A stretch of 64,000 bases of DNA, taken from NCBI RefSeq assembly GCF_937616625.2, contig NC_065573.1, forward strand, positions 13,097,001-13,161,000. Direction: 5' to 3'. Position numbers and translations under genes: made by a program. This DNA comes from Mercurialis annua (Eukaryota; Streptophyta; Magnoliopsida; Malpighiales; Euphorbiaceae). The notes beneath the pieces were generated by a model. That model was given only the letters and a program-made list of their open reading frames with translations. It ran no database searches and was not told the origin of the DNA. Shown here piece after piece: positions 1,546 through 56,142 of the stretch. How positions within the stretch are numbered: position 1 is the stretch's first letter; each line of letters opens with the position of its first letter.

Positions 1546-2188
1546 CAGACACGCGCACGCACAGTGTTTTCGCCAATCGACCTAGATTTTCGAGAAAATT
1601 ATATACGCATATATCGAGATTCGTAATGGATTAACATTCGATTAATTATTGTTTAATTAGAGGCGTTAACCTAATGAGGTTAAAAGAGGATTGAGTTAAA
1701 AGTGATTTACGATCCGTAAACGAGTTAGATACCGTTTATCGGAGTATACGTGAGAAGCACGGCGGTTAATAAAAAGTTCAGTGTGTCGAGTCTAGAGTCA
1801 ATCTTAGAATAGGGTTCTGACTCAAGTCAAATGTTTTAAAATTTGTTTTAGATCCGGCGAGACAAGAAGCAGCTGGACCAGTAGTTCGGGAAGCTTGACG
1901 TTCTTAAGCCCCGACGTATTTTTGGATAGGCGTTTTCAGTGAGTTTATATGATTTACTTTTAAAGTATTTATTTAAGCAATTATTTTATATTGCTTTATA
2001 TTTAAACTGCATGCTTTATATGCGAAACTTTTATATGAATTGCGCATATGCTTGATTTGAAACCAGTATCGATCCGATGGAACGTGCTACCTATTGAGCG
2101 GCAATAGGACTGTGTGATCACCAGTTTTGATTTGATACAGCTATGAGCTGACTATGATTATGAAATTTGAGATTTGAGGTATAGTTTG

Positions 2189-2267
2189 ATACGAGTGAGC
2201 AATCGGCTACGGTGTAGCCGGAGTCCCCGTATCTAGTGGGTTGGACCCACCAGTGAGTTGGACTCAC
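2189..2267 (+). other. Conserved hairpin module in the solo LTR
   Basis: An outer pair GATACG/CGTATC encloses hairpin CGGCTAC-ggt-GTAGCCG (2204-2220). Two TGG-loop hairpins follow: GTGGGT-TGG-ACCCAC (2236-2250) and GTGAGT-TGG-ACTCAC (2253-2267). The same series occurs in the other LTRs with compensatory base changes in the stems. This suggests a selected nucleic-acid structure, but its role is unknown. Confidence 0.75.
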
Positions 2268-2843
2268 AATTTGATATTAATGATTGGGTTGCTTGATTGA
2301 TATTTAGTATGTTTGAGGATTAAGGTTTCAGTCGGATCTCGTACTTGGCTGCATACGGTTGAATATCGTTTTATGTTTTATTTGAATACTTATTAGTAAA
2401 TGTATGAACTCACTCAGTATATCCCAATATACTGACCCCTCACAGATTTCCTTTCAGGATAAAGACGATTTGAAGCGACGGACTTCTATCCTACTTCCAG
2501 AAGTCTGTATTTTTGAGTATGTAAAGAAACAGTACTTTACTCTTAGAGCTGCAGTAGATAAGTATTTTGCAAGTCAGCTTGTAATGTATAGTTTTCTGTA
2601 AATATAACTTTAATGTTTTAAAGTTTTAAATGTTTTACGCTAGATGCGTTTTAATATTTGAGACTGCCAGATGATATGTATACCTGGCATGCGTGCTTCT
2701 GCATGACACATGTTTATGTATGTCACGTATGACGTTGATGTTTCGCGAAAAATTATTTTACGTTTTTAGGCTTGCTACGGGTTTCGGAGCAACCACTCCC
2801 ATTCCCTAGCGCCGGTCTCGGCCCATGAGATTGGGTCGTGACA

Positions 2844-15100: not shown

Positions 15101-16520
15101 AATATGAAAACTCGCAAAATACGCAGACCGTTCTCTCTCTCCACTTTCATGGTAGCATGATTCTATATATTCAATTGAATAAAATTCAATAGGAAAGTCA
15201 TTGAGGGTTTAGCTCAAACTTTCCTGCTCCTTCTTGGGTATCCAGGACAGGGTCAAATAGTGGATGGTGCCTTCCCCATCCATGGCATGCTCAAAGCACT
15301 TTCAGCAGGTGAAAAAAAAGACCACTTAAAAGATTAAATGTAGAATTCTAGATGAAGGTTATGAGGAGTTAGGCTTGTAATTGATCACATGAACTTGGCT
15401 GGAAAATGACATTTCAAAAAATACTTCATTTAAAGAAAATTGTATATGTCCAAATGCATCATTGACATCTTTTTCTAGCAATCTAATTTCTTATAGTAAT
15501 GTAATAGTAAAAGGCAAGAAATGACGAGCAAACTTACAGCAGCGGAAGAACTGAGGCCAGAGCTGTCAAAACCTTCAGATCCACTGATAAATCCTGTGAT
15601 GCCCTATAATGATAATAGTTGAAATTATTTCCTGATTTAAATATGCAGGATTCGCCAAAGGAAATCTATCTAAAGCTGTCGTAAATATCTAGTTTTATCA
15701 AAGATAATATAGCCACAGCAGTATTATCTTAAATGCAGCATTTCAGGAAAAACAAATGCACATGTAATGTATGGAAGAAATTGTCAGATCACGTTATGAT
15801 ACGACAACTTAATGTTTCTAATTTTTAAGATATGAATTTGATTATATGCATAAATGGTTTCAAATGTGCATAAATTTAGACACAGCATTGGTGCATTCAA
15901 TATAGACTTGGTCACAAATTTATTTCAACTTATCACAACTGAACTCGGGTTAATTAATTTGAAAAGCCTAGTGAGCATAAGAATGAAGTAAACCTGTGTA
16001 ATAGTGTGTCCCCTACTCTGTAATGCATAGAGAGCTCCTCTGGCAAAATGTCCCCAGTTAGAGTCTTCTTTTTTGATAATTGGTTTGGGGAATTGAAGTT
16101 GGTCAACACTGCAAAATAGATGGAATAATGTGAATTGGAAATCACAAAGATGAAACAGATGAAGATAAGAGCTGAAGAATACCTGAAGCTAATGGTTCCA
16201 CTAAATTGTGCGGAGCCTAATGTGACCTGCACCAAGATTTGCAGGGAGCTAATAAGTAAAGAGATGATGAAGATAGAAGAATTAAGTTGGATGTTTACCT
16301 GGGAATCAGGTGAAGGAACAAAGGCCAAGAGAATTCCTTTGTTGATGGTCATGGCGGAAACAATTCCACCCTGATGATCAATGTGAGCGCCGAGGGGACA
16401 AATCCTATAAGGAGACACCACCACTCGGACTTCCTCGCACCTCCTCCCCGACATTGAACTCGCTATTTCTCTCATTTTATTTACCTCATCTTCACTCGGC
16501 CAACTCGCCCTTCTCTCCAT
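6191..16520 (-). CDS. GALAK: Galacturonokinase, 12 exons, 417 aa
   Basis: This GHMP-family sugar kinase phosphorylates D-galacturonate at C-1 with ATP. The product feeds UDP-galacturonate synthesis in cytosolic salvage of pectin-derived sugar. Exons, in transcription order: 16520-16299, 16226-16183, 16108-15994, 15603-15538, 13089-13010, 11588-11489, 11228-11077, 9603-9563, 9465-9437, 8562-8493, 8376-8287, 6435-6191. All introns are GT-AG and every junction keeps frame (1254 nt including TGA). Visible motifs: substrate-binding SPYRICPLGAHIDHQGG (36-52), ATP-loop SSGLSSSAA (141-149), GILDQS with the probable catalytic Asp191, and C-terminal GARFSGAGFRGCC (356-368). The length is close to the roughly 424 aa of the Arabidopsis protein (At3g10700), to which every exon aligns from memory. 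The start is the first ATG before the conserved core. No disabling change is seen. Introns of 1.4-2.4 kb hold repeat debris. Confidence 0.97.
6610..7990 (-). pseudogene. Decayed Ty1/copia fragment (RT-RNase H-3' end) in GALAK intron 11
   Basis: On the minus strand, read from high to low coordinate, it shows copia reverse transcriptase debris (KSKFDHHVFYKRF, then VVYVDDI near 7730-7750). Next come LKYFLGLDV and SQRKHVLDLLKD (about 7580-7660), the RNase H stretch GDCVFVGGNLVLWKNKK..RSSAE (about 7145-7240), and the typical copia C-terminus NKLAMIDTYAPA-stop-GGVL (about 6810-6850). About 6610-6790 resembles 3' LTR sequence. Many stops and frameshifts are present. Gag, protease and integrase are absent. 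It has the same orientation as the host gene and lies wholly within intron 11 (6436-8286), so the host reading frame is not affected. Confidence 0.85.
10590..10925 (-). pseudogene. Unidentified protein-coding relic in GALAK intron 7
   Basis: On the minus strand a 50-codon open stretch (about 10725 to 10575) reads as ordinary protein, including LLQLAPLFKVVLSHG and ERLGAEGRILWALRMRD. Just upstream, after stops or frame changes, are ENLVHYLDGVSVDLEFLDS and ENLWYGNIEAKVRDLPKN. The amino-acid balance is unlike the AT-rich intron around it, which suggests a processed or transposed gene fragment. I do not recognise the family. It could also be a chance open frame. Confidence 0.35.
14660..14985. repeat. 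Diverged tandem duplication in GALAK intron 4
   Basis: Two copies about 171 bp apart share CTTGACAAATATTTCC, CCTAT.CTC.AATTT, AAGGTCT.AC, CTCCATCT and GGTTGGAAATT-type blocks (first at about 14667, second at about 14838). No coding content is seen. Confidence 0.65.
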
Positions 16521-21748: not shown

Positions 21749-22204
21749 TGTAATACCCAAAATGTTTAATTGTTTAATTGGACCATGTGTCCAGTTTTGA
21801 GACGCTAGAGTGGCGATATCAGAAGATTTTCGGATAAGATTTAGATAAATAAGTTTTAAGTAGGTCGGTTTTGGGAGGATAATAATGATGTATTTAATAT
21901 TATCTCCTAGCTAGAAAGTTGGAATTGGAATGAAAAGGGAAAATGTAAAGAAAAGTCCCAAAATGAAGTTCAGGGACTAAAGTGGTAATTTAGCCACTAC
22001 GTCTCAAAATGGAAATTTATAAGTTTTGACGGAAAAATATTAATAGTGGAATTCGTATTGTTTATTGGATATAAATAATACGTATGAAAATTGGTTAAAA
22101 GATTAATCAATTTAGTTATAGACCAAATTGAACAAAAGAAAAGTTCAAAAGATAATTTGTAACAAAGAAAGAAAACAAGGATCAAATAATCCTTTTAACC
22201 TTGA

Positions 22205-22213
22205 TATATAAAG
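22205..22213 (+). promoter_or_regulatory. Predicted LTR TATA box
   Basis: TATATAAAG lies 456 bp into the LTR. An identical site occurs in the 3' LTR at 29276-29284. Confidence 0.65.
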
Positions 22214-22614
22214 GTTTGGATATGAAAGAAATAAGATCAGAGAAAGGAGAAGAGAATCCAGAAGCTTCGCACTTTCATCGATCGATACCGTCGTTCGCTA
22301 GCCGTTTCGCCGTTCGGCGTCCGTTTCGAACGATTTTCGCGTCGATCTCTTCGGAATTCAAGCCTCTATCTCTCCCAAGCATCAAAACAAGGTTAGTTAC
22401 ACGTTTCTACCATGAAAAATGAAGATTTAGTGGCTGTTTTACCGTTTCTATCGTGATTATATTGGATTCGCCGTTTGGAGCGTTTTGTGTTGATTTCGAA
22501 GTGATAAAAGTGTTATTAATGTGTCTAAATGATCTAGGTATGTTTTGGAATGAATTTGGAGTGATTTGGGGCTTCGAAAATGGTCTAGGAGCCTCAAAAT
22601 CGTCGTCCCCGAAG

Positions 22615-22779
22615 GGTGCACGACGTGCTGAAATTCAGCACGTCGTGCTGGTGCGCGACGTGCACCACAAGGGTGCACGACGTGCACCACAGGGGTGCAC
22701 GACGTGCACCAGTGAAGGGCACGTCGTGCCCTTCATGAAAAATGAAGGGCACGATGTGCCAAGCTGGCACGACGTGCCC
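22615..22779 (+). repeat. GTGCAC-type palindrome array in the 5' LTR
   Basis: Units such as GGTGCACG-a-CGTGCACC, AGCACG-t-CGTGCT and GGGCACG-t-CGTGCCC repeat across 165 bp. The overlapping short open frames here are by-products of the repeat. The identical array in the 3' LTR lies at 29686-29850. Confidence 0.9.
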
Positions 22780-24278
22780 CACTTCGACGCCGACCTCCAT
22801 GGGACTTCCGGGAGTGAAAATGAGCCTCCGATAGCTTGATTTGAGTGTGAAACCCAGTTAAGTGTCTGAAAATGGATGTAAAACATTATAGAAATGAATG
22901 TTAATGTGATAAGTAAGAATTCAGTTAAGAAAGTTATATAATTTCCGAGTACAAGGAATAGTACTCGATAAGTCGTAAGTACGACTAAGGATCATCGAGT
23001 TTTCAAGCAATCTAGAAGAGGAATCCAATCAACTTAAACTTAGAACTTAAAAGCATTATACGTATAGGAATACGAGATTCACGTCTAATCATTAAACATT
23101 AATTATTTATCAGACGTGTCAGAGCAGAGAGGTCAGTAGACGTGGGATAGCAAGGGCATATCATTTCATCGACCATATTTGTGATTGGATTGCGGTCACT
23201 GTGAGTTGCACTTTACTTTCGTGTATTATATATTAAAGTTATTTTATATAGATATATATACTGTTTACACGCATCGCATTATATATATAATTGTTTGAAA
23301 TGTTATATGTTTTATTAGTTTCTATATACGAGAACTAGTATGCGATCCGAAGAAACTAGCTACCTATTGGGTGTCAATAGGCTGTGTGATCACCAGTATC
23401 GAGTCAGTCTAGTATGTTTGCATTGAGAAATGACTTGACACAGCTGGGAGCTGTTGATGAATATGATATTTACGATTGGGTTATGATTTCGATACGCAGA
23501 GTGAACTCGGCTACGGTGTAGCCTGGAAGTCCCCGTATCGAGTGGCTGGGCCACCAGCGAGTTGGACTCGCAATTGATATTTACGATTGGGTTGAATGAT
23601 ATATGATTATTCGAGAGATGTGTCGCATGCTAGGATATTAGTTTCACACGGATCGAATACATGTTTATATGTTTTATATTATTGTTTTCTTGAGATGCGA
23701 TGCTATGTTTTTAAATTAATGCCGTTAGTAAAATGCAACCTCACTCAGTATTTTCCCAAATACTGACCCCTCACCTTTGATGCTTTCAGGTACTTAGTAT
23801 GTGGACCTAGCTAGAGGCCAATTTTGAAGTCCAGAAGTAAGTTGTATTTGTTTAGTATCTGACTTCTGTGAATGCTGCAGTAGTGGTCCCGCGTTGACAG
23901 AGTCGTAGCCTAGACAGCAGTACACATTGAGTGTACATATTACTTGCTTTCCAGTTTATATGTTTTTGTAGGCTACGTGTTTTATATGTTGTGCACGGCA
24001 CTAGGTGCCAGTAATATGTTGGATACACTAACTGATGTATATAGTACCGCGAGGCCAGTTCGTACGAGGTACGGTAACTAGAGCCCGCGAGGATAACAGA
24101 ACAGTTAGTGTAAATGTTTGTGTATACATGTTATGTATACTTGCTTCTGTTGCTTTATGTTATTTGTTTATTATTTGCGAAAAATTAATAGTGATTTAAG
24201 GCTTGCTACGGGTTCCGGAGCTACCACTCCCGTTCCCTAGCGCCGGTTGCGGCTCAATATTTTGGGTCGTGACAATGT

Positions 24279-28819: not shown

Positions 28820-31345
28820 TGTAATACCCAAAATGTTTAATTGTTTAATTGGACCATGTGTCCAGTTTTGAGACGCTAGAGTGGCGATATCAGAAGATTT
28901 TCGGATAAGATTTAGATAAATAAGTTTTAAGTAGGTCGGTTTTGGGAGGATAATAATGATGTATTTAATATTATCTCCTAGCTAGAAAGTTGGAATTGGA
29001 ATGAAAAGGGAAAATGTAAAGAAAAGTCCCAAAATGAAGTTCAGGGACTAAAGTGGTAATTTAGCCACTACGTCTCAAAATGGAAATTTATAAGTTTTGA
29101 CGGAAAAATATTAATAGTGGAATTCGTATTGTTTATTGGATATAAATAATACGTATGAAAATTGGTTAAAAGATTAATCAATTTAGTTATAGACCAAATT
29201 GAACAAAAGAAAAGTTCAAAAGATAATTTGTAACAAAGAAAGAAAACAAGGATCAAATAATCCTTTTAACCTTGATATATAAAGGTTTGGATATGAAAGA
29301 AATAAGATCAGAGAAAGGAGAAGAGAATCCAGAAGCTTCGCACTTTCATCGATCGATACCGTCGTTCGCTAGCCGTTTCGCCGTTCGGCGTCCGTTTCGA
29401 ACGATTTTCGCGTCGATCTCTTCGGAATTCAAGCCTCTATCTCTCCCAAGCATCAAAACAAGGTTAGTTACACGTTTCTACCATGAAAAATGAAGATTTA
29501 GTGGCTGTTTTACCGTTTCTATCGTGATTATATTGGATTCGCCGTTTGGAGCGTTTTGTGTTGATTTCGAAGTGATAAAAGTGTTATTAATGTGTCTAAA
29601 TGATCTAGGTATGTTTTGGAATGAATTTGGAGTGATTTGGGGCTTCGAAAATGGTCTAGGAGCCTCAAAATCGTCGTCCCCGAAGGGTGCACGACGTGCT
29701 GAAATTCAGCACGTCGTGCTGGTGCGCGACGTGCACCACAAGGGTGCACGACGTGCACCACAGGGGTGCACGACGTGCACCAGTGAAGGGCACGTCGTGC
29801 CCTTCATGAAAAATGAAGGGCACGATGTGCCAAGCTGGCACGACGTGCCCCACTTCGACGCCGACCTCCGTGGGACTTCCGGGAGTGAAAATGAGCCTCC
29901 GATAGCTTGATTTGAGTGTGAAACCCAGTTAAGTGTCTGAAAATGGATGTAAAACATTATAGAAATGAATGTTAATGTGATAAGTAAGAATTCAGTTAAG
30001 AAAGTTATATAATTTCCGAGTACAAGGAATAGTACTCGATAAGTCGTAAGTACGACTAAGGATCATCGAGTTTTCAAGCAATCTAGAAGAGGAATCCAAT
30101 CAACTTAAACTTAGAACTTAAAAGCATTATACGTATAGGAATACGAGATTCACGTCTAATCATTAAACATTAATTATTTATCAGACGTGTCAGAGCAGAG
30201 AGGTCAGTAGACGTGGGATAGCAAGGGCATATCATTTCATCGACCATATTTGTGATTGGATTGCGGTCACTGTGAGTTGCACTTTACTTTCGTGTATTAT
30301 ATATTAAAGTTATTTTATATAGATATATATACTGTTTACACGCATCGCATTATATATATAATTGTTTGAAATGTTATATGTTTTATTAGTTTCTATATAC
30401 GAGAACTAGTATGCGATCCGAAGAAACTAGCTACCTATTGGGTGTCAATAGGCTGTGTGATCACCAGTATCGAGTCAGTCTAGTATGTTTGCATTGAGAA
30501 ATGACTTGACACAGCTGGGAGCTGTTGATGAATATGATATTTACGATTGGGTTATGATTTCGATACGCAGAGTGAACTCGGCTACGGTGTAGCCTGGAAG
30601 TCCCCGTATCGAGTGGCTGGGCCACCAGCGAGTTGGACTCGCAATTGATATTTACGATTGGGTTGAATGATATATGATTATTCGAGAGATGTGTCGCATG
30701 CTAGGATATTAGTTTCACACGGATCGAATACATGTTTATATGTTTTATATTATTGTTTTCTTGAGATGCGATGCTATGTTTTTAAATTAATACCGTTAGT
30801 AAAATGCAACCTCACTCAGTATTTTCCCAAATACTGACCCCTCACCTTTGATGCTTTCAGGTACTTAGTATGTGGACCTAGCTAGAGGCCAATTTTGAAG
30901 TCCAGAAGTCAGTTGTATTTGTTTAGTATCTGACTTCTGTGAATGCTGCAGTAGTGGTCCCGCGTTGACAGAGTCGTAGCCTAGACAGCAGTACACATTG
31001 AGTGTACATATTACTTGCTGTCCAGTTTATATGTTTTTGTAGGCTACGTGTTTTATATGTTGTGCACGGCACTAGGTGCCAGTAATATGTTGGATACACT
31101 AACTGATGTATATAGTACCGCGAGGCCAGTTCGTACGAGGTACGGTAACTAGAGCCCGCGAGGATAACAGAACAGTTAGTGTAAATGTTTGTGTATACAT
31201 GTTATGTATACTTGCTTCTGTTGCTTTATGTTATTTGTTTATTATTTGCGAAAAATTAATAGTGATTTAAGGCTTGCTACGGGTTCCGGAGCTACCACTC
31301 CCGTTCCCTAGCGCCGGTTGCGGCTCAATATTTTGGGTCGTGACA
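28820..31345 (+). repeat. 3' LTR of the 21.7-31.3 kb element
   Basis: Same length (2526 bp) as the 5' LTR and nearly identical to it, with the same internal landmarks shifted by 7071 bp. It is followed directly by the target duplication TAAGT. Confidence 0.95.
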
Positions 31346-32048: not shown

Positions 32049-34528
32049 TGTAATACCCCAAAATATTTAAGTTTTTAATTGGACCACGTGTCCAGTGTTA
32101 AGTCGCCAGAGTGGCGATATCGGAAAGATTTCTGAGAAATTAAGATAAATATTAAATTTTAGCAGGACGGATTCGAAAGGATTATTGCGAGAGATTTAAC
32201 ATGATATTTCAGTTCTAAAGTTGGAATTGGAATTAGAAAAGAAAAATGTTAAGAAAATCGCAAAATAAAGTATAGGGACTAAAATGGTAATTTAGCCATA
32301 TAAATTCCGAAGTGAAAATTATTTCGCCAAGGTCCGCGAAATGTGTTATAGTATATGTGGTAAAAGTTTCGGGTCAATCGGAGACCTTTTAAAATTTGGA
32401 CGCGGATGCGTTTTGGGCTAAATTGCAACTTTTGAGAAGTTTAAGGGCTAAAGTGTAAATCAGCCAATTAAGCTTCGAGAATAGTAATTTGAAGATTAAT
32501 GATGGAAAATAAAAATATTGGGTTAGTATTATTTATTGGATATAAATAATACGTAAGTATTCGAGTCAGGATAATTTAACCGTTTGGTTAAATTAGAAAG
32601 TTTAAAAGAGAAATGGTTTGAGTTAAAGAAATGAGGGATCAGAATAACCTTTTTACCAATATGTATATAAGAATTGAGAAGAGAAATGAAGAGTCCAGAA
32701 GAAGAAGAAAGCATCATATGAAGGAAATGACGATCATCGTCGATCCGTCGTCGTTTCGGCGTTTCTCGTCCAAATCAAGCGTTCTTTATATCGATTTGTT
32801 TAGAATTCTATTCTCTATCTACCACGAGCATCAAATCGAGGTAATTTGATGGTTTTTAATATTGAAATGATTGGGTTAGGGTTATTTCGTTTAAACGAAT
32901 TAAACGAATCATAATCGCGTTTCTATAGTCGTTTTTGGTAAGAATTGAATTGAATTATGTGTTATAACGAAGTGGAAGCATGCCGGGAATGACGAGGAGC
33001 GACGAAGCGCCCGTAGAATGGATTTTACGGGAGCTGAGTGCGGTGTGCGAACGCACACCTGTGTGTGCGGACGCACACCTGCTGATATGCGAACGCACAC
33101 TGGGGCCGTGCGTCTGCACGGGACCCTTCGTGCGCTCGCACAGCCAGCTACCGCGCCTATTTGGACATCTTACCCCGTTTCGACCTAGATTTCCGACTTT
33201 AAGTACGTCGGACATTAAAAGTGAATCACGGACCCCGAAAACAAGAAATTTGGATATCGAACATAACGAGTTCGATTAAGGTTTCGGGATATAAAGAACC
33301 TACGTTTAAGAATCAATGAATAAGAGATATAACGAATATCTCGATTAAGTATTAGAATACGACTAAAGTTAAGAATCGTATTTGAACTATGATTATATTA
33401 ACCTAAGTTATTAACTTAGGGTTTTGATATTACGCCTACGTTTATGGATTAAACGTACAGGAAACTCGACTAAGTAACTAACGTATCGACGAGTTATCAA
33501 GCTGATGAGCTGGAGTAGCTAAGAGATCGAACAATGCGCGAAGCCTACGTGTGCGGGTGATGATAATGCAGTTTTGGATAGCGGTCACTGTGAGTGGCAA
33601 ATTTACTTTTGTGTATTATTATGAAAGTTATTTTTATACCTTATTAGTATTATTACCCGTATATCGCATTTGTATGAACTGTTTATATGAGATGGTAGGT
33701 TTGATGAATTTGATTATATGAATATTGTGTATTCGTTGTTTTGAAGATGAATGTCTAGTGTGCAGTCCGAAGAGATCAACTACCTATTGGGTGTCAATAG
33801 GCTGCGTGATCATTAGTGAGTCAGTCTAGAGTGCCTGACTTTGTAATTAGAATTTAATATATATTTATGCATGATATAATATGAATTCGATACGAGTGAG
33901 CACTCGGCTACGATGTAGTCTGGAGTCCCCGTATCTAGTGGGCTGGGCCCACCAGTGAGTTGGACTCACACTTTGATTTCGATACAAGTGAGCACTCGGC
34001 TACAGTGTAGCCTGGAGTCCCCGTATCTAGTGAGTTGGACTCGCATTTTGAAATTTAGAATGTTTATGATTTGCCTATATCATGAATTTATAAATGTATT
34101 AAGCGTATGACGCTATACTTTGATAATACCATTAGTAACTTGCAAACTCACTCAGTATTTTCCCAAATACTGACCCCTTACTCTGATATTTGCAGGTAGA
34201 CAAAGTCAGATCAGACAAACCATCTCCACTGTGCCAGAAGTCATTGGACTTGCACAAGTATGAGTTCCTACAGCTGCAGTAGTCAGTAGGTGTCAGTCTA
34301 AGATTAGTGAATTGATTTCAAATAGTTATTTTTGAATGTAAACTCTCATATAATATTTCAACATTTATAAGTATATTATTTAAAAGAGTTTTTCTGAAAA
34401 TGTTTTATGTATAATATTATACTTTTAAATGCAAAAAATTATTAGTGGTTTTAGGCTTGCTACGGGTTTCAGAGCTACCACTCTCATTCCCTAGCGCCGG
34501 TCTCGGCTCAATAATTTGGGTCGTGACA
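32049..34528 (+). repeat. 3' LTR of the old outer element
   Basis: A 2480-bp LTR with TGTAATACCCC...GGGTCGTGACA ends. It has a TATA box TATATAAG (32664-32671), donor-like GAG|GTAATT (intron would start at 32841), a GTGCGaaCGCAC-type palindrome array (33041-33143), two successive hairpin modules (about 33889-34053) and an acceptor TTTGCAG|G ending at 34195. The matching 5' LTR is absent, so no target duplication can be assigned. Confidence 0.92.
33041..33143 (+). repeat. GTGCGAACGCAC palindrome array in the outer LTR
   Basis: Four or five units of the form GTGTGCG-aa-CGCACAC or GTGTGCG-ga-CGCACAC, then GTGCG-tct-GCAC, occur in about 100 bp. It sits at the same LTR position as the other arrays. 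Confidence 0.85.
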
Positions 34529-38266: not shown

Positions 38267-41235
38267 TGTAATACCCCGTATTATTTATAGTGTCTATTTT
38301 TTCGAGCGAGCCCCATTTTAGTTAATTAGGATTTCGGAAATAGTTAATAAATTCACGAGATGAATTTATAAGTGTGAAAATATGTTTTGGAATGTGTTTT
38401 GCTTTAATTTTGACTTTTGGCAATTTTACGTGTTAAAAGTAATTTTTATGATTTTACGCTAAAATAAATATGAATTATTTTTAAAGGCCCGAAAATAATA
38501 AATTCAGTCCATATGTAATATTTAAGAGTATTTGAGAAGAGTTATTTGAGAATGTTGTCTATTTTACCTCTAGAGTTCGATTTATTTACAAGAATGTCAT
38601 AATGGCAAATTTGTAAATAAATGAACAATGAAACAAATATCTAGATATTTTATGTTGCCTTCTTCTTCACTTTGGCAAAGCAAATTCCTTCCTCCATTTT
38701 TGTGGGTGCCGAATTCTCCTAAAACCAAACACAACTCAATATCTTTCATTTTCTTATAAAATTTCCTTAACGAAAATTGACGAGAAACTTCCGTAGATTG
38801 TTATCCTAAACTTTAATCAACGATCAAGGTGATTTTCAAAACTTAAATTTTAGTAATTATATTTTGTTTTTATTAAGTTATAAATACTTGTATTTAGTTG
38901 TTAAAATGATAGTTTGATAATAATAATTTGGTTTTGTAAATTATTTTGTTATTGCTCGGTTTTGATCAATTTTTAAATATGGGTAAATGATTAAATTAAA
39001 TTTCTGTGCTGATGTTAAAAATGAATTTAATATATATGTTGAAGGTTGATTTTTATAGATTAATTAATGTTGATAAAAAACCGTGGTGTTATTTATAATT
39101 GATGGGTTTTGGTTTTTAAACGTTTTAAAATCGTAAATAGTAAAAAATGTGAAAATGGTTTATTTTAAATTTCTGGAAATAATTTTATTCATGTATAATT
39201 TATATGTTTGATTGATGATGAACAAGTGTTTAATTGTGAATTTTTGATGGTTTATTAACCGGGTTCGGTTTTGATGACTTTATTAGTTTAAAATTGTTAA
39301 AATTATGGAAAATAATTTATTTTCAAAAATAGGGATGCTGTTTTTACAAAGTAAAAATTAAAAATATTTTTAAACTTAATTTTGATGATTTTTGGTATTT
39401 AAAATGCTTAGAGAGGATTTTTAAGCGTTTTAAGCGTTTTGATGTTTTCCAGCCAAAACCACCGGAATCCGGTAACCGGAATAGGAGCAGAGGGGACAGA
39501 GCAAGGGAGCTCATTCTCATGCTCATTCGGCATTTGTTACTACCGAAGTTGCTCCGGCAGTAAACGAAGGGGGCCCGAACCCCTGGTGCTAAAATATTTG
39601 ACGGAAAAATATTTTTAAATTTTAAAAGTGTAGAGTATCTATTTGGATTTTCTAAAAGTATATTTTTAGAAAATAGTGTAGATTTTAAAAGTGTTAGAAT
39701 TATAATTCTATATTTATTTATTAAGTTAAATAAACTAACGTGGATAGGGGTTATCGTATTGAAATACGATGATTCGGAAAGTGACAGTTGGAATCAAATT
39801 TGGATATTTGATTGAGTCGGTCTAGAATTTATCCTGTAATTTAGAGGTTAAAACATTTATTAATGTTTAATTTCTAAATTAGATCCAGCGAGTTTGGTCG
39901 CGAGTGCCAGTGTATAGAGGCTTTGAAATTTCAACGGGCGAAATTTTAAATTTTGAATAAGCGAGTACTGTGAGTGTATTTACAACTTATCCTGCTAAAT
40001 ATTAATATTAAAAAAATTATTTGTGAACTGCTTTACATAATTCACAAATGTCTTGTTTATTTGGAATTTAAATCGCATGAACTGTTATACTAGTTTTGAA
40101 ACCGATGTAGATTCATTGAAACATGCTTACTATTGGGCGTCAATAGTACTGTGTGATTACCGGTATTGCATTTAGAAATTTTTGCACGTGTTGTGTGAAT
40201 CCGGACGACGGTCTGAAAGTCTGCGGCGACGGCCTTGACATATGGGCACAGAAAGAGGCAACGGAATACATACGACCAAAGGCTAGTAAAGAGACACTGT
40301 CGAAACCTGAGAGGTTAAACCTTTTTCAAAAAATGAATTGGACAATATTTATGTACAGTCGAAATATGTTGTATGGTAAGAAGAGTATGGGACTTTCATA
40401 TACATAAAAATCGGATTTGCCTTGCAAAAGCACAAAAAGAAAAAAATAAATATGGCCAAAAAATATATATATAAAAGGTTAACTCGAATAAGGTTGAATA
40501 AGGTGGATTATATATGTTTCCTATTTTGAAAGCATATATAGGAACATGAATCATGGTTTAGGATTTCATATGAATCGATAATCTGGGTGTATTACTTTCA
40601 CATTAATGTTTATTAGTACATGTTGTACACATTCACTCGGTTTTTATAACTAACCCCGTTGAATTTATAAATTTTTATAGGCTAGTAGTATGAGATGTGG
40701 ATTTCCAATTTCTTGTTCCGAAAATCTCTGACTGAATAAAGTATGATGACCTTTTTCTCCTAATATCTAGAGTTGCAGTAGCTATAGTATCGTATGGTGA
40801 CGCCTTAGTAGTCGTTGGACTCATTTATACATTATATTTAATTTTAACGCTAAAACGCTAATATATATAATATGTGTATGATGTCCGAAAGTCCGAGCGA
40901 CTGTACAAGAATAAATGTGACGAACGTGTCTGCATAATGAAATGCAGTTATAACCATAATGAGATGGTGTATGCATAATGAAATATATTATAAACCCTAA
41001 CAAAGTGGGTATGAAACTTGAATACATTAGTTAAAGAGAAAATTAATTGTAAAGTTTCGTTATGACTTTTATCGGAATGTTTTAAACAGATATTTTAAAT
41101 GTTTGAAAATTTGTTTTGTCTTCCGCAAAAAATTTAAGGTGATTTTTAGAGTGTTTTTAAGGTTTGCTACGGGTTTCGGAGCAACCACTCTCATTCCCTA
41201 GCGCTGGTCTTGATGCCGAGAATCGAGTCGTGACA
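38267..41235 (+). repeat. 5' LTR of the decayed gag-pol gypsy element
   Basis: A 2969-bp LTR with TGTAATACCCC...GTCGTGACA ends. It shares only part of the hairpin set (for example CTATTG-ggcgt-CAATAG near 40129-40145) and the 90-bp 3' end (from about 41160) with the other LTRs. A GC-richer, non-palindromic block occupies about 39470-39590, where the others carry palindrome arrays. Confidence 0.85.
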
Positions 41236-41535: not shown

Positions 41536-43687
41536 TTGATGAGGATGGTTGATCAACACGAGAAAAACATGCAAGACGGAAACGCTCATGATGAGGCGTC
41601 CGTTCATGACGATGCGATGCCTGCTGCGGGTCGTGGACGGGGACGAGGTCGTGGTAGAGGCCGAGGGCCAAACTTCAACATTCCTGGCTTTGATTTTGAA
41701 CAATTTTTAGCTGGAGTCGCAACTATGCAACGAATCAAGCGGAGGTGCAAAATATGCACAAAGACCAGTTGAATTATCAACAGCAACGAGTTGGTGCAAA
41801 CGTTGATCGTGATCTCGTTATGGCTTACATAAGGCTTAAGCCCATGAAGTTTGATGGAACGAATGATGCGTTAGATTTCTTAGAGGAGGTGAAAATGAAC
41901 ACTAGACGTCTTCAGGCTGATGAAAGACAGTCGACTTTGCTAGTGGATATGTCAGTGAAAGGAGCTGCGAAAGATTGGTTCCAAAGGCATATTCAACCAA
42001 GTATGGGATAGATGACTTGGAATGAATTTGTCACTCGATTTAAGGATTTCTTTCTACCATTTTCAGTAACGGAGAATTATCGAGAGAAGTTTTTGAATTT
42101 GAATAAGGAAGGGAAGACAATGAGAGAATATGTGACGGAGTTCACAAGGCTAAGTCGTTTCACACCTGATCTGATGTTGGACCCAGTCAGGGTTAATTCA
42201 AGGTTTAATAAGAGGCTAGGACCTGCATTTATTGGACTACTATATGATGCTAGGAGGGATTTGGTTCAGATCATTGATAGTGCACGCCAGATGGATACTA
42301 CTTTGATCAAATTTGGGAAGATAACTGTTTCTGGTGAGCAAGTAACTGTGAGAGAGGGAACTGCAAGTTCTAATACAAATAGGTTCATTGGACCATATCG
42401 TAAGGGAATTAAGAAAAATAGGAAAGATAAGATGTTCAGTGCTTCTGGATCAACTTCTAATGGACGGAGTTCAGGAGGAACGGTACCACTATGTCATACT
42501 TGTGGCAGAAGGCATTTTGGAGTGTGCTATATGACGACAAGTGGATGTTTCACGTATGGACAACATGGTCATTTTACTAAAGAATGTCCTGTGTCTGGAC
42601 CACAAGGTTCAACCGCCAGTGTTGTTCAACCAGTGTTTTAACAACCAAGACCTGTGTATCCTGCAGTGTCTGGCAGGCACAGAATCAGAATCTGTTTAAT
42701 GGTCAACATGGAAGAGGATATGGATTTGGTAACCGTGGTGGAGGAAGGGCCATAAGAAGACGAGGATCTGGAGCGACTACTCAGGCTAGCAGAGGGCAGG
42801 CTGGAGTTTTTGCGATCAATCCTCAGGAAGCTAATGCGTCGAATGCGGTAGTGTAAGGTATATTTTCAATATCTTCGCATGATGCATCAATTTTGTTTGG
42901 TCCCGGTGCTATGCATTCATTTGTATCGTCGAGTTTTGCATCAAAATTAGGAATTCAACCTGTGTTTTTGCAAAATCCATTGTCAATAACTACACCGGTA
43001 GGCGACAACATAGACGTTACTATAGTTTATCCGTTGTGTCCTGTATTAATCGGAGGGCGAGAATTTCTTGCGGATCTGCTATTGCTCGATGTCTTGGAGT
43101 TTGACGTCATACTAGGAATGGATTGGCTGTCGCGACATTATGTGAATGTGGATTGTCGAGAGAAGATAGTGACGTTCCATACACCTGGAACCGAACTTAT
43201 CTCAATTCGGGGGAAGAAGTTAGAAACCCCAAAGAGTTTAGTCTCGACTTTGAAAGCGAAGAAGATGACGAGTAAAGGACGTTGAGGATTTTTAGCTCTG
43301 ATATGAGATATTCAGAAGGAAGTTGGTAGTGTGAATGATGTACCAGTAGTGTCGGAGTATTCTTATGTTTTTCCAGAGGAGCTACCTGGATTACCACCAG
43401 ATCGAGAGATTGAATTTTGTATTGATCTAGTTCCTGGTACAAGTCCAATATCGATACCCCCGTATCGGATGGCACCAGCAGAACTGAAGGAGTTGAAAGA
43501 TCAATTAGAAAAATTAGTTGATCGTGGATTTATTCGACCAAGTGTATCACTGTGGGGTGCACCAGTGTTGTTCGTAAAGAAGAAATATGGATCTATGAGA
43601 CTCTGTATAGACTACAGACAACTCAATAAGGTTACAATCAAGAATAAGTATCCATTACCCAGAATTGATGATTTATTCGATCAATTG
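41536..43687 (+). pseudogene. Gag-protease-RT (N-terminal part) of a gypsy polyprotein, disabled
   Basis: Segments in order: an RGRGRGRGRG-rich N-terminus (41536-41745); a Gag domain (MKFDGTNDALDFLEEVK, then MTWNEFVTRFKDFFLP, 41745-42300); and a nucleocapsid knuckle near 42545-42585 reading CFTYGQHGHFTKEC, whose second Cys of the usual CX2C is Tyr. Next is an aspartic protease at 42890-43180 with LFGPGAMHSF, where the active-site Asp is Gly, and then FDVILGMDWL. The RT start (43331-43687) includes [39 protein letters not shown] and [14 protein letters not shown]. Frameshifts near 41745 and 42590, and stops at 42009, 42854 and near 43283, disable it. Confidence 0.92.
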
Positions 43688-46210
43688 TGTCACGACCCAA
43701 AACTATTGAGCCGCAACCGGCGCTAGGGAACGGGAGTGGTAGCTCCGGAACCCGTAGCAAGCCTAAAATCACAATTAAGTTTTCGCAAATATAATATAAA
43801 CAAATAACAACAAACAACGGAAGAAAATATACATATATATAACATATAACCAAATATGTACACTAACTGTTTCAAAACCTCGCGGGCTCTAGTTACCGTA
43901 CCCTGTACGAACTGGCCTCGCGGTACTATATACATTAGTTAGTGTTTCAAACATCTCACCGGCATCTGGGGCCGTGGATTATATACAATGTACGTAGCCT
44001 ATCAAAAAGCATATAAACAAAGACAGGAGATGATATATACAATCAAAATAAACTGCTGACTAGGCTACTATTCTGTTGACACAGGACCACTACTGCAGCA
44101 TTCACAGAAGTCATAAACTATCATATACAAATGACTTCTGCACTCCAAAATTAGCTTCTAGCTAGGTCCACAAGCTAAGCACCTGAAAGACATCAAAGGT
44201 GAGGGGTCAGTATTTGGGGAAATACTGAGTGAGTTGACATTTACTAACAGTATTAATATAATAACATAGCATCGCATGTCGAGAAAATATTAATATAAAA
44301 GATATAAACGTGTATTTGATCCGTGTGAAACTAATATCCTAGCATGCGACACATCTCTCGAATAATCATATATCATTCAACCCAATCGTAAATATCAATT
44401 GCGAGTCCAACTCGCTGGTGGCCCAGCCACTAGATACGGGGACTTCCAGGCTACACCGTAGCCGAGTTCACTCTCGTATCGAAATCATATACCCAATCGT
44501 AAATTTCATATTCATCAACAGCTCCCAGCTGTGTCAAGTCATTTCTCAATGCAAACATACTAGACTGACTCGATACTGGTGATCACACAGCCTATTGACA
44601 CCCAATAGGTAGCTAGTTTCTTCGGATCGCATACTAGTTCTCGCATATAGAAATTAAGTAAACATATAACATCCAATCAATTGTATATAATGCGATGCGT
44701 GAAAACAATATATATATTTTCATAAAATAATTTTAATTTATATAATACATGAAAGTAAAAGTACAACTCACAGTGACCGCAATCCAAGAAATGATATGAT
44801 CGATCTGATAATACGCTCTCGCTAGTCCGCCTCTATTGACTTCACTACTTGCTGACACGTCTGATAAATCGTTAATAGTTAGACGTGATTCTCGCATTCT
44901 TATACGTATAATACTTTTAAGTTTTATGATTTAGTTTCGTTTTACACTTATTTACGTATTCGATATCTCTAGTCGTATAGACGACTTAGTGAATACTATT
45001 TCTCATAATTGAGAATCGCTTAACGTCCTTGACGTTTTCCATTATTATTATTTATTTAAAACGTCGAGCTAATCTCGAGATTAATGATTCTCAAAGTTCG
45101 AAATCCGTCCTTTAGAGTCAAATTACTCAAAACGTCGAATGCCTAGATCAATTTCGGTTTGCATACGTGTGGAGGCGAGTTGGGGTGCACGGGTGTGCGT
45201 TTTGGTGGGTGCACGATCGTGCAACTGAGTACACGTTCGTGCACCTCAGGGGTACACGTTCGTGTACTTATTGTACACGTTCGTGCACCATGAAAGGTGC
45301 ACGTTCGTGTACTTCAGTACACGATCGTGTACCTTGCTAGGTGCACGTTCGTGTACTTCCAGTACACGTTCGTGCACCCGTGGTGCACGGTCGTGCACTA
45401 CGTGCACAGCCCCGGAAATCAGATTTCCCGGGGTTTCGCCACAACCCCGACGTGCTAAGCATAACCACGCTCAATACCCATATCACGGTTTCTTCAAAAA
45501 CGCTATACAAATCTCGCAAACGTCAAATTCAACCCAAAATCACAATCTCATTAAAACAGCCTATAAACTTGCTTTTAGTACCAAAAATCCGAAGATTTAC
45601 CTTGAAATAAAGCTCAAGATCAGTAGAGGATTGAATTCCGGAGAGATGGCCGCGAAAATCGCTTGAATCGGACGTCGAATGGCGAAACGACGGAAATCGG
45701 CGATAGCTTTTGTTTCCTCTCGATCCTTCTCTGATCTTCATTTCATATTTCCTTAATTATATATGATTTGGCTAAAAGCTCATTTGGGCCCTTGTTCTTT
45801 TTGTTTCTTATCATTTATCCTTTAAACTTTTCAATCATACGATTCAGTCCATAGCTAAATCGTTAATCTCTTTTATTACGACTTATACGTATTATTTATA
45901 TCCTATAAATAATACAAAGCCCGATAATAACACTTTCCCGTCAAAATCCAATATTTCTATTTTCGACATAAAGTGGCTAAATTACCACTTTGGTCCCTAT
46001 ACCTTATTTTAGGCTTTTCTCGCCATTCTCTCATTTAATTCCAATTCTAACTTTAGAATTAAAATATAATATAAGTTTTCTCCGTAATGACCTTTTCTAA
46101 AACGACCTACTAAAACTTATTTATCGGAAAACTTTCCAATATTGCCACTTCTGCGACTCAAAACTGGACACGTGGTCCAATTAGCTAATTAATTATTTTG
46201 GGGTATTACA
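43688..46210 (-). mobile_element. Solo LTR inserted in the gypsy RT, minus orientation
   Basis: On the plus strand it begins TGTCACGACCC and ends GGGTATTACA, the reverse of the family termini. The perfect duplication AATTG flanks it (43683-43687, 46211-46215). At 2523 bp it is close to the 21.7-kb LTR in its 3' half, sharing the hairpin set at about 44395-44640. It carries its own palindrome array at 45180-45410. The 134-aa frame at 45262-45666 is a by-product of that array. Confidence 0.95.
45180..45410 (-). repeat. GTGCACGTTCGTGCAC / GTACACGATCGTGTAC palindrome array
   Basis: Roughly ten palindromic units with arms GGTGCACG or AGTACACG around a TT, AT or GT-type centre fill about 230 bp. 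It sits in the minus-strand solo LTR at the same position as the arrays of the other LTRs. Confidence 0.88.
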
Positions 46211-53413: not shown

Positions 53414-56142
53414 TGTAATACCCCAAAATATTAAATTATTTAATTGGACCACGTGTCCAGTGTTAAGTCGCCAGAGTGGCGATATCAGAAAGATTTCCGA
53501 GAGATTAGGATAAATATTAAATTTTAGCAGGACGGACTCGAAAGGATTATTGCGAAAGATTTAATATTATATTTCAGTCCTAAAGTTGGAATTGGAATTG
53601 GAAAAGAAAAATGTCAAGAAAGTCGCCAAATAAAGTACAGGGACTAAAATAGTAATTTAACCATATAAGATCCGAAGGGATATTATTTCGCCAAAGCCCG
53701 CGAAATATTTTATAGTATATGTGGAAAAAGTTTCGGGTCAATCGGAGACCTTTTAAAATTTGGACGCGGATGCGTTTGGGCTAAATTGTAACTTTTGAAA
53801 AGTTTCAAGGGCTAAAGTGCAAATTAGCCAATCAAGCCAGAAAATAGCGATTAAAAGATTATTAATGAAAAATAATAATTTTGAGTTAGTATTATTTATT
53901 TTGAGATAAATAATACGTAAGTAATTGAGTTAGAAGGATAATTTAACCTTTAGGTTAAATTAGAAAGTTTAAAAGAGAAATGGTTTAAGTTAAAGAAATG
54001 AAGGATTAAAGTGATAACTTTTCCAAAATATATATATACATTCCTTATGAGTAAGGAAAGGAACAGGGATCAGAAGGATCCAGAGAGGTGAGAGCGAGAG
54101 AAAAGAAAATGTTCGGTTCGTCGCCGCTTCGCCGTTTCTCGTCCGTTTCCGACGTTCTATAGCTCGAATTGATCGTATTTCAATGGCAAATCACGGTAAG
54201 CTTGTCGTTTTACCGTTTAGACGGATATATTTTAAGTTATATCGATTCAAAGTTTTAGGCCACGAAACGATTATATCGTTTTAATCGATATTAGAATTGG
54301 ATTATAGTGTTTTGAGCTTAGATTAAGCGTTTCGGATGTGTTTGGAGCGTTTTTACGCTAGTAGCACGTCGGAATGGCCGAGGACGAATCCTACGCGGGC
54401 GCGTAAATAAGTTACGCGGGCGCGTAACTAAGTTACGCGGGCGCGTAACTAAGTTACGCGGGCGCGTAACTATGTTACGCGGGCGCGTAACTATGTTACG
54501 CGGGCGCGTAACAATGTTACGCGGGCGCGCAAGTACTTTGCGCGGGCGCGCAACCATATTGCGCGGGCGCGCATTAAGGCTATGCGGGCGCACAACTTAT
54601 TCGAAGCACCTAAAAGTTATTTCTGCCCCGCTATGACCTCGTTTTCCGACTTTAAGAGTGTCGGACATTGAAAAGGAAACATAAGCCCCAAAAACGAGAA
54701 ATTTGAATATCGAACACGACGTATTCGATTAGGGTTTCGAGATATAAGAAACCTATGATTAGAAAACGATGGATAAGAGATATAATAAGTATCTCGACTA
54801 AGTATTAGAACACGATCAAAGTTAAAAGACATATATAGAATAGGATTGTGTTAACCTAAGTTTATAACTTAGGGTTTTGATACTAAGTCAACGTTTATGG
54901 ATTAAACGTATAGGTAACTCGATTAAGTAACTGACGTACCGACAAACTATCAAGCCAGTTAGCGGGAATGGATACGTGATTGGACAACGCATGGAGCTTA
55001 CGCATGCGGGATTATAATAATGCAGTTTTGGATAGCGGTCACTGTGAGTTGCACTTTACTTTCGTGTATTATATATTAAAGTTATTTTATATAGATATAT
55101 ATACTGTTTATACGCATCGCATTACATATAATTGATTGAAATGTTATATGTTTACTTAATTACTATATCCGAGAACTAGTATGCGATCCGAAGAAACTAG
55201 CTACCTATTGGGTGTCAATAGGCTGTGTGATCACCAGTATTGAGTCAGTCTAGTATGATTGCATTGAGAAATGACTTGACACAGCTGGGAGCTGTTGATG
55301 AATATGAAATTTATGATTGGGTTATGATTTAGATACGCAGAGTGAACTCGGCTACGGTGTAGCCTGGAAGTCCCCGTATCTAGTGGCTGGGCCACCAGCG
55401 AGTTGGAATCGCAATTGATATTTATGATTGGGTTGAACGATATATGATTATTCGATAGATGTGTCGCATGCTAGGATATTAGTTTCGTACGGATCAAATA
55501 CCTGTTATATGTTTTATATTATTGTTTTCTTGAGATGCGATGTTATATTTTTATATTAATACCGTTAGTAACTTGCAAGCTCACTCAGTATTTCCCAAAA
55601 TACTGACCCCCTCACAGTGTTTATTTCAGGTGATCGGAGTCGGATCAGACAGACCATCTCCTTTGTGTCGGCAGCCTTTTGGCTTACACAAAGTACGAGT
55701 TTGTATAGAGCTGCAGTAGTCAGTAGGTGTCAGTATAAGGTTTATGATTCAATTTCAAACGGTATTTGAAAAGTAAACTCTGATATAAATTTTATAAATG
55801 AGTTGTTTAGAAAGATGGCGTTTATCCGTTTGAATTTGATACCAATTGCCGTGAGTGGAATTGGTGATGTTTGTGATCAGAAACAGGGCGGTGCTGGATA
55901 TGAGATATCGCTCGGTAAGACCCTGGTTTCTAAGAATTGTTTCGCGAATGTTTTCAGAAAAGGAATACGATATTTTAATAATTGAATTATATTATTTAAA
56001 GAAGATTTCTGATAATGTATTATATATAATAATATGTTTTATTCACGAAAAATTTTCAGTGGTTTTAGGCTTGCTATGGGTTCCGGAGCTACCACTCCCG
56101 TTCCCTAGCGCCGGTCGCGGCTCAATAATTTGGGTCGTGACA
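53414..56142 (+). repeat. 5' LTR of the 53.4-63.1 kb element
   Basis: TGTAATACCCC...GGGTCGTGACA. It contains TATATATATA (54029-54038), donor-like ACG|GTAAGC (intron would start at 54196), the GCGGGCGCG array (54392-54593), the hairpin set (about 55195-55420), CTGAC...TTTCAG|G ending at 55629, and an extra roughly 165-bp block (about 55813-55975) absent from the outer LTR. Its 5' part resembles the outer LTR (32049-34528), whereas about 55036-55600 resembles the 21.7-kb LTR. Confidence 0.94.
54392..54593 (+). repeat. GTTACGCGggCGCGTAAC array, 10 units (5' LTR)
   Basis: Units of 21 bp, each a palindrome with arms GTTACGCG and CGCGTAAC around GG. The last few drift to TTGCGCGGGCGCGCAA. The reverse-strand frame repeating R-P-R-N is a by-product. 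Confidence 0.93.

Follow-up and report, generated by a model that had tools for sequence, protein, structure and literature searches.

Judged from its sequence, the hairpin block at 23355-23770 of the window (the whole stretch of 64,000 nucleotides analysed) looks like a spliceosomal leader intron inside an LTR. The reading that we prefer, at a probability of about 0.4, is that the leader intron of a chromovirus-like LTR carries a module of RNA hairpins, that one of these (H8), which covers the candidate branch site, slows splicing and that the part of the transcript left unspliced serves as genomic RNA. The splice signals around the block, which are absent from the initial annotation, change the most likely identity of what had been described there as a structured RNA or DNA element, with splicing control as one of several conceivable functions. 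A fair statement of the structural evidence is that the block appears to hold conserved stems with some compensated changes, in few lineages; selected RNA structure is supported, not proven.

The LTR family and its hairpin set

Six LTR versions of one broad family (E1-E6) were located in the window by blastn with E2a and by sequence inspection, as follows.

705-2843, E1, solo LTR with TSD aaatt
21749-24274 and 28820-31345, plus strand, LTR pair E2a and E2b, 4 substitutions between them (blastn, pair comparison)
32049-34528, E3 LTR
38267-41235, plus strand, E6, a sixth, divergent LTR absent from the list in the initial annotation; its element bears gag/protease
42012-43285, gag and protease pieces of E6, PF03732 (gag) and PF08284 (protease)
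43688-46210, minus strand, E4, solo LTR with TSD caatt
53414-56142 and 60395-63143, LTR pair E5a and E5b with TSD atatg

The 5' LTR of E2, E2a, has the termini TGTAATACCC...GTCGTGACA and is followed by TGGTATCAGAGC, which we take to be PBS-like; named from its LTR-end motifs, the family is presumably chromovirus-like, of the Tekay/Del type. Gag and protease after the LTR were found in E6 only (PF03732, PF08284), a pair of domains that we take to be typical of Ty3/gypsy, and a short distance downstream of these pieces, at 43688, follows the insertion of the solo LTR E4. Between the E2 LTRs lie two ORFs of at least 120 aa, one on the element strand (193 aa, without a Pfam match) and one on the opposite strand (138 aa); there is no ORF of at least 120 aa between the E5 LTRs. 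On this ORF scan, which covers intact frames only, E2 and E5 look like non-autonomous elements. A search for gag homologues gave 75 candidates, 0 of them at E<=0.001. The initial annotation had spoken of LTRs and their partners; E2 and E5 are paired, E1 and E4 are solo LTRs with a TSD, and blastn of the window with E2a as sole query found no partner LTR for E3. Elsewhere in the window, an ORF at 15954-16520 (minus strand) carries a galactokinase signature (PF10509) and is probably a piece of a host gene.

The hairpins are given here in E2a, with the E6 counterpart of H0.

23363-23381, plus strand, H0, CCTATTG-GGTGT-CAATAGG, which is CTATTG/CAATAG with an outer pair
40128-40148, H0 in E6, TACTATTG-GGCGT-CAATAGTA, one pair altered on both sides
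23440-23454, plus strand, H4, ACAGCT-GGG-AGCTGT (CAGCT/AGCTG with an outer pair), 5 bp in E1, absent in E3 and E6
23491-23539, plus strand, H1, outer GATACG/CGTATC around GGCTAC-GGT-GTAGCC (23509-23523) and a short GAG-TGAA-CTC stem
23542-23554, plus strand, H2, GTGGC-TGG-GCCAC; GTGGGT-TGG-ACCCAC in E1, GTGGGC-TGG-GCCCAC in E3
23557-23571, plus strand, H3, GCGAGT-TGG-ACTCGC; GTGAGT-TGG-ACTCAC in E1 and E3
23745-23766, plus strand, H8, TCAGTATTT-TCCC-AAATACTGA, candidate branch site in the 3' arm (UACUGA; branch A 23766)

Every element of the series named in the initial annotation was found at 23355-23770, in E2a, and all three stem changes that it quoted (H2, H3, H8) are present in the sequence, as is the constancy of the TGG loops, both of which are unchanged across E1-E5. 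The order of the series is the same in E1, E2a/E2b, E4 and E5a/E5b; it does not hold for E3, which is without CAGCT/AGCTG and has the H1-H3 module twice, the second copy with just one TGG hairpin. Nor does conservation extend to all complete LTRs, since E6 fully keeps CTATTG/CAATAG only and is without H1-H4. A further stem, AGTCAG/CTGACT, which was not counted in the series, occurs in E3, with AGTCA/TGACT at the same place in E2, E4 and E5 and nothing comparable in E1. By eye, a GATATTTACGATTGGGTT-like repeat flanks the module on both sides in E2 and E4, possibly the scar of a duplication like the tandem one of H1-H3 in E3.

Candidate splice signals and the branch-site hairpin

The candidate leader of E2a, and the introns with the hairpin set in the other LTRs, are as follows (^ marks a splice site).

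22392-23113, plus strand, candidate intron 1, donor AAG^GTTAGT (donor score rank 1 of 162 in E2a), acceptor TTTATCAG^AC
23114-23200, plus strand, candidate exon 2; 87, 87, 88, 89, 89 and 87 nt in E1, E2a, E3, E4, E5b and E6
23201-23789, plus strand, candidate intron 2 with the hairpin set, donor ACT^GTGAGT, acceptor CTTTCAG^GT
1939-2457, plus strand, intron 2 with the hairpin set, E1
33590-34195, plus strand, intron 2 with the hairpin set, E3, H1-H3 module at 33886-33974 and again at 33978-34049
44183-44771, minus strand, intron 2 with the hairpin set, E4
55044-55629, plus strand, intron 2, E5a, H3 broken by one base compared with its partner E5b
62046-62630, plus strand, intron 2, E5b

The sequence signals of a U2-type intron (GT donor, branch site, AG acceptor and their distance) are present in 6/6 LTRs, i.e. 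in three to four lineages, as a donor GTGAGT, an ACTRAC motif and a YAG^G acceptor 22-27 nt past the branch A. The donor context is ACT^GTGAGT, or TCA^GTGAGT in E1, with the intron 2 donors of E1 and E6 placed by hand. On a home-made score that includes a branch term, the intron 2 acceptor ranks first in 6/6 LTRs among 105-126 AG sites; when that term is left out its ranks are 3, 3, 1, 1, 1, 1 (T score) or 2, 1, 1, 1, 1, 4 (pyrimidine score), ties being counted as equal. These splice scores were devised after sequence inspection, the donor score being built on a frequency table. On the donor score the site adjoining the hairpin block is middling (rank 10-22 of 124-162); the upstream donor (e.g. 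CACG^GTAAGT), which lies ~160-190 nt past a TATA-like box in E1-E5, ranks 1, 1, 1, 1, 2 and 4 of 124-162, fourth in E6, which is without an assigned box. Intron 2 is richer in T than exon 2 in 6/6 LTRs (0.33-0.37 vs 0.24-0.30).

For candidate intron 1, E1, E2a and E4 have a good acceptor and E6 a moderate one, but those of E3 and E5b are poor (rank 29 and 51; 59-89 on a second scoring). The start of exon 2 in E3 and E5 was first set at another AG (129-130 nt) and then shifted to match the branch-site pattern (88-89 nt), so that the similar exon lengths are not independent. Given the poor intron 1 acceptors of E3 and E5b, one long intron, with the upstream donor and the acceptor beside H8 as its ends, would be at least as likely as two; in either case the hairpin set would be intronic. 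With exon 1 taken to start 30 nt past the TATA-like box (in E6, arbitrarily, 140 nt before the donor), exons 1-2 contain no ATG in E1, E2a, E4 and, with its arbitrary start, E6; there are 6 ATGs each in E3 and E5b, and 5-20 per LTR in exon 3. Because ATGs remain in exon 3, and in exons 1-2 of E3 and E5b, the clearing of upstream ATGs is an insufficient reason for splicing.

H8 is a 9-bp stem in E1, E2a, E3, E4 and E5b in which the entire branch-site sequence is paired, its 3' arm being the candidate U2-binding sequence UACUGA with the likely branch A. Its form is UCAGUAUUU-loop-AAAUACUGA in E2, E3, E4 and E5, with a loop of UCCC, CCCC or CCCA, and UCAGUAUAU-CCCA-AUAUACUGA in E1. When the upstream sequence is shuffled, the branch arm finds a 9-bp partner with a probability of 0.0001-0.00025. 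The predicted pairing probability of H8 is 0.94-0.96 (mean) in 150-nt folds of five LTRs, and 0.92-0.96 in whole-intron folds of 5/5 (E1, E2a, E3, E4, E5b). In E6 the branch site is CTAAC and H8 is reduced to 4 bp (-0.7 kcal/mol).

According to the preferred reading, transcription would start in the LTR and run through the hairpin block, where H8 and the U2 snRNP would compete for the branch site, such that removal of the intron is slowed. Transcripts that retain the intron would provide full genomic RNA (a spliced one would pass on an incomplete R/U5 to the next copy), and the spliced fraction would be available for expression; H0-H4, present in unspliced RNA only, may favour retention of the intron or serve as a mark on the RNA. 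No spliced copy was seen. E2 and E5 look non-autonomous but retain the splice signals, which implies that splicing cannot serve their own Gag alone.

Conservation and pairing of the stems

Between the donor GTGAGT and the acceptor, the introns of E1, E2a, E3, E4 and E5b each contain 6 perfect hairpins with a stem of 6 bp or more and a loop of 3-10, against a shuffle mean of 0.9-1.3; a count of 6 was reached by 2/300 shuffles for E1, 3/300 for E5b and 0/300 for each of E2a, E3 and E4. Five of the six hairpins per intron belong to the named series, the sixth being A+T-rich in E1, E2a, E4 and E5b and AGTCAG/CTGACT in E3. The E6 intron has 1 such hairpin vs a shuffle mean of 2.3, and 270/300 shuffles reach the E6 count. 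Aside from H8, the 150-nt folds give 0.95-1.00 for the inner H1 stem, 0.13-0.67 for H3 and 0.79-0.97 for H0, but 0.12 for H0 in E5b; in whole-intron folds of E3, H1 has 0.18-0.28 and H3 0.10. For the most part the block does not stand out in folding energy, with z from +1.0 to -2.4 for 120-nt windows in E2a (40 shuffles each) and lower values in single windows of E3 (-3.6) and E4 (-3.1).

Since intron 2 of E5 is near-identical to that of E2a and other parts of these LTRs are not, we treat E2, E4 and E5 as one version, such that the five LTRs represent three independent versions of the block; with E6 the independent lineages number three to four. In six ordered comparisons of E1, E2a and E3, stem bases are 80-91% identical vs 57-66% for the rest of the intron; hence the stems decay more slowly than the flanking LTR sequence, a comparison that the initial annotation had proposed. 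When stems from one sequence are located in another by plain alignment, 3-5/6 are intact vs 0.15-0.29 expected, and broken or gapped pairs are fewer than expected (P 0.0000 to 0.025; the same six comparisons). Against E6, H0 alone is better kept than the rest of the intron (0.80 vs 0.46, E6 to E2a), the other stems having 0.50-0.51 vs 0.46-0.47. From E1 to E6 1/6 stems is kept (P 0.02); from E2a to E6 none is, yet broken pairs are below expectation (P 0.02); and from E6 to E2a the only stem is not kept over its full 8 bp (0/1). In the intron alignment of all six LTRs, conservation over 15 columns is highest at H0 and its flank, the 5' arm of H8 and the branch site.

Between E1 and the E2 group, the 8 altered bases among 45 stem pairs make up 4 both-sided changes, one of them a symmetric deletion, with 0 pairs broken, and 0/200000 random placements were as good. 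E1 vs E3 and the E2 group vs E3 each show 2 both-sided changes, 1 one-sided and 0 broken in 40 pairs (about 0.0007); of the 7 pairs of H0, one is altered on both sides in E6 (0.06). The paired changes are T-A vs A-T in H8, T-A vs C-G in H2 and H3, and a symmetrical shortening of H2 by 1 bp. The stem list for this count was drawn up and trimmed after sequence inspection, and '0 broken' refers to the trimmed stems only: excluded were H3 of E5a, where one base breaks a stem that is intact in E5b; the second copy of the module in E3, whose outer H1 stem has one A-C mismatch; the short GAG/CTC stem within H1, which is disrupted in E1; a weak CTG/CAG pairing after H0; and the outermost H4 and H1 pairs that hold in one lineage only.

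The claim that stems change on both sides together thus stands for the counted changes, which are mostly paired. It does not stand as a general rule: both-sided changes are in no excess over a neutral simulation (2-4 vs 1.9-3.0; E1, E2a, E3), H3 is broken in E5a, and many pairs are invariant (GATACG, most of GGCTAC and, within E1-E5, CTATTG) and hence uninformative on covariation. The covariation term of RNAalifold is slightly unfavourable, at +0.19 and +0.39 kcal/mol, with both-sided changes in 2/29 and 1/9 pairs and H2 misaligned in alignment A3. Selected structure, which the initial annotation had suggested, is favoured by the conservation of the stems and by the non-random pairing of their changes; the RNAalifold term, the mostly ordinary folding energy and the number of lineages (3-4) do not favour it. 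Two G-U wobble pairs in the E3 copies, set against the one A-C mismatch in the second copy, would be expected if the stems act as sense RNA, and not if they are palindromes in DNA.

Searching with a covariance model of the module recovered its 8 source copies and two weak reverse-strand echoes (E3, E 0.007; E1, E 0.19), with no match to E6. Rfam families, including the hammerhead, gave 0 matches across the window at curated score, and 23190-23800 gave one chance match (E 5.6). Scanning viral and genome contigs with a part-module pattern gave 0 matches in each, the records of the window's own genome possibly lying outside the scan.

Alternative readings, related systems and exchange of the intron

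The same location is compatible with an export or packaging role, and template switching can account for part of the symmetry of the stems. A group II intron and a tRNA-like element were also considered and not adopted. The most serious of the alternatives, though a doubtful one, is that the intron hairpins are a packaging or dimerisation signal or a nuclear-export element, which would be effective since unspliced RNA alone carries them. The hairpins do sit in the candidate intron, and neither TGG loop changes in E1-E5; however, the gag-bearing E6, the obvious source of particles, is without H1-H4. The parallels would be retroviral psi, which sits downstream of the major donor, and the export elements of simple retroviruses; the block, however, lies inside the repeated LTR, where a typical psi does not. 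Retention of the set in E2 and E5, which are without a long gag/pol ORF and would be mobilised in trans, speaks for this reading; Gag-less BARE2 is reportedly packaged in BARE1 particles, which fits conserved packaging signals (PMC3735527, in part).

That the symmetry is a mutational by-product, with template switching in reverse transcription copying one arm onto the other without selection, we consider distinctly unlikely. Quasi-palindrome correction by template switching makes stems perfect and their changes paired; both arms of H2 are shortened at once, palindrome arrays of differing letters occur in the same LTRs, and E5 demonstrates that segments are exchanged. Nevertheless, the stems hold their position across lineages that are 61-69% identical (aligned intron), with 3-5/6 intact vs 0.15-0.29 expected, and the G-U states (G-U in H1 of E3; U-G in its duplicate module, a step between T-A and C-G of H3) would not be left by one-step copying. 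Conservation of primary sequence only, with splice signals and enhancer words that are self-complementary by chance, is very unlikely: most stem pairs are invariant, the 5' arm of H8 (TCACTC-GT) is kept in E6 despite its weak pairing, and the both-sided changes do not exceed those of the neutral simulation, but matching changes would rarely arise by chance (0/200000 for E1 vs the E2 group and ~0.0007 for both E3 contrasts, for stems picked after inspection). The least probable of these readings makes the short inverted repeats protein-binding sites, such as GGNCCCAC-like TCP sites, or cruciform-prone DNA. The stems are short and mostly perfect, and H2 of E1 and E3 includes GGACCCAC / GGGCCCAC; H2 of E2, E4 and E5 (GTGGCTGGGCCAC), however, loses the motif and retains the stem, and wobble pairs are present in the sense strand.

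The preferred reading, of a leader intron slowed by H8, has partial parallels in known systems. In avian retroviruses the NRS is likewise an RNA element thought to restrain splicing and so to spare full-length RNA; it is a decoy donor in gag, ~300 nt past the 5' splice site (PMC9143442, in part). By eye, the H1-H3 arms of E1 resemble donors (GTGAGC, GTGGGT, GTGAGT), but in E2, E4 and E5 the donor look is lost (GTGGCT, GCGAGT) with pairing kept and, unlike in the NRS, a hairpin covers the branch site itself. The constitutive transport elements (MPMV CTE, IAP RTE and MusD MTE) are similarly structured cis RNAs that act on unspliced genomic RNA with no Rev-like protein, although no Rfam family was matched in the window. 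The CTE binds NXF1/NXT1 and the RTE recruits RBM15 (PMC9143442 and PMC12786077, in part); plants are said to use TREX, not TAP/NXF1, and the same 2025 review regards it as unclear whether plant elements possess CAR-like export motifs (PMC12786077, in part). Export of Cer1 (PMC10309623, in part) is among the precedents. Ogre, BARE1 and EVADE also separate RNA pools by partial splicing, but with introns placed inside coding domains or between them (PMC6317226, PMC3735527 and PMC12786077, each in part), whereas the candidate introns here are in the LTR. Retrozymes (PMC4918200) reportedly place structured RNA, in the form of hammerhead ribozymes, in the LTRs of non-autonomous plant elements, in contrast with the window, where no Rfam family reached its cut-off. 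The portions of PMC12786077, PMC6317226, PMC3735527 and PMC9143442 that were available do not describe an arrangement of hairpins in an LTR intron, and the titles and abstract openings covered, most subscription papers being outside this scope, name no intron inside a plant LTR.

Little is known of how plant LTR retrotransposons retain, export and package RNA that has not been spliced, and with a hairpin as short and well defined as H8 on the candidate branch site the balance of splicing can be put to a direct test. If the preferred reading is right, LTR introns would matter for the annotation of plant LTRs and, probably, for the effects of LTR insertions on the splicing of neighbouring genes. 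It is conceivable, but unlikely, that a branch site locked by a hairpin, together with other hairpins tagging the unspliced RNA, corresponds in plants to a retroviral splicing attenuator combined with an export or packaging element, and that this unit is retained in non-autonomous members and handed on as a whole from one LTR subfamily to another.

Intron 2 of E5b (62046-62630) is 93% identical to that of E2a (23201-23789) and 91% to that of E4, whereas the U3, exons 1-3 and intron 1 of E5 are 44-69% identical to those of E2a and E4, and the last 100 nt 89-90%. At diagnostic sites E5b mostly resembles E3 up to the donor and mostly E2 across almost the whole of intron 2; starting ~60 nt ahead of the acceptor, in a part with few such sites, it returns to the E3 type. 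The 5' junction falls within an identical stretch, GCGGTCACTGTGAGT, in the donor stretch. Intron 2 of E5 was exchanged almost as one unit, which counts in favour of the leader-intron reading; the simplest cause would be template switching between co-packaged RNAs at splice-site identity.

Intron 1 carries tandem arrays of near-perfect palindromes with a period of 20-22 nt (also 44 in E4 and 63 in E5), located as follows.

22618-22770, E2a
~1402-1545, E1
~33042-33141, E3
~45208-45407, minus strand, E4
54391-54595, E5a
61373-61599, E5b

No array of this type was seen in E6. The letters of the arrays differ much between LTRs and share a CG-n-CG centre. In E1, E2a, E3 and E4 no other part of the LTR has a folding z as low as that of the array (to -10.8); in E5b the z of the array goes down to -5.8 and that of a window elsewhere to -6.7. 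The array period matches two turns of DNA.
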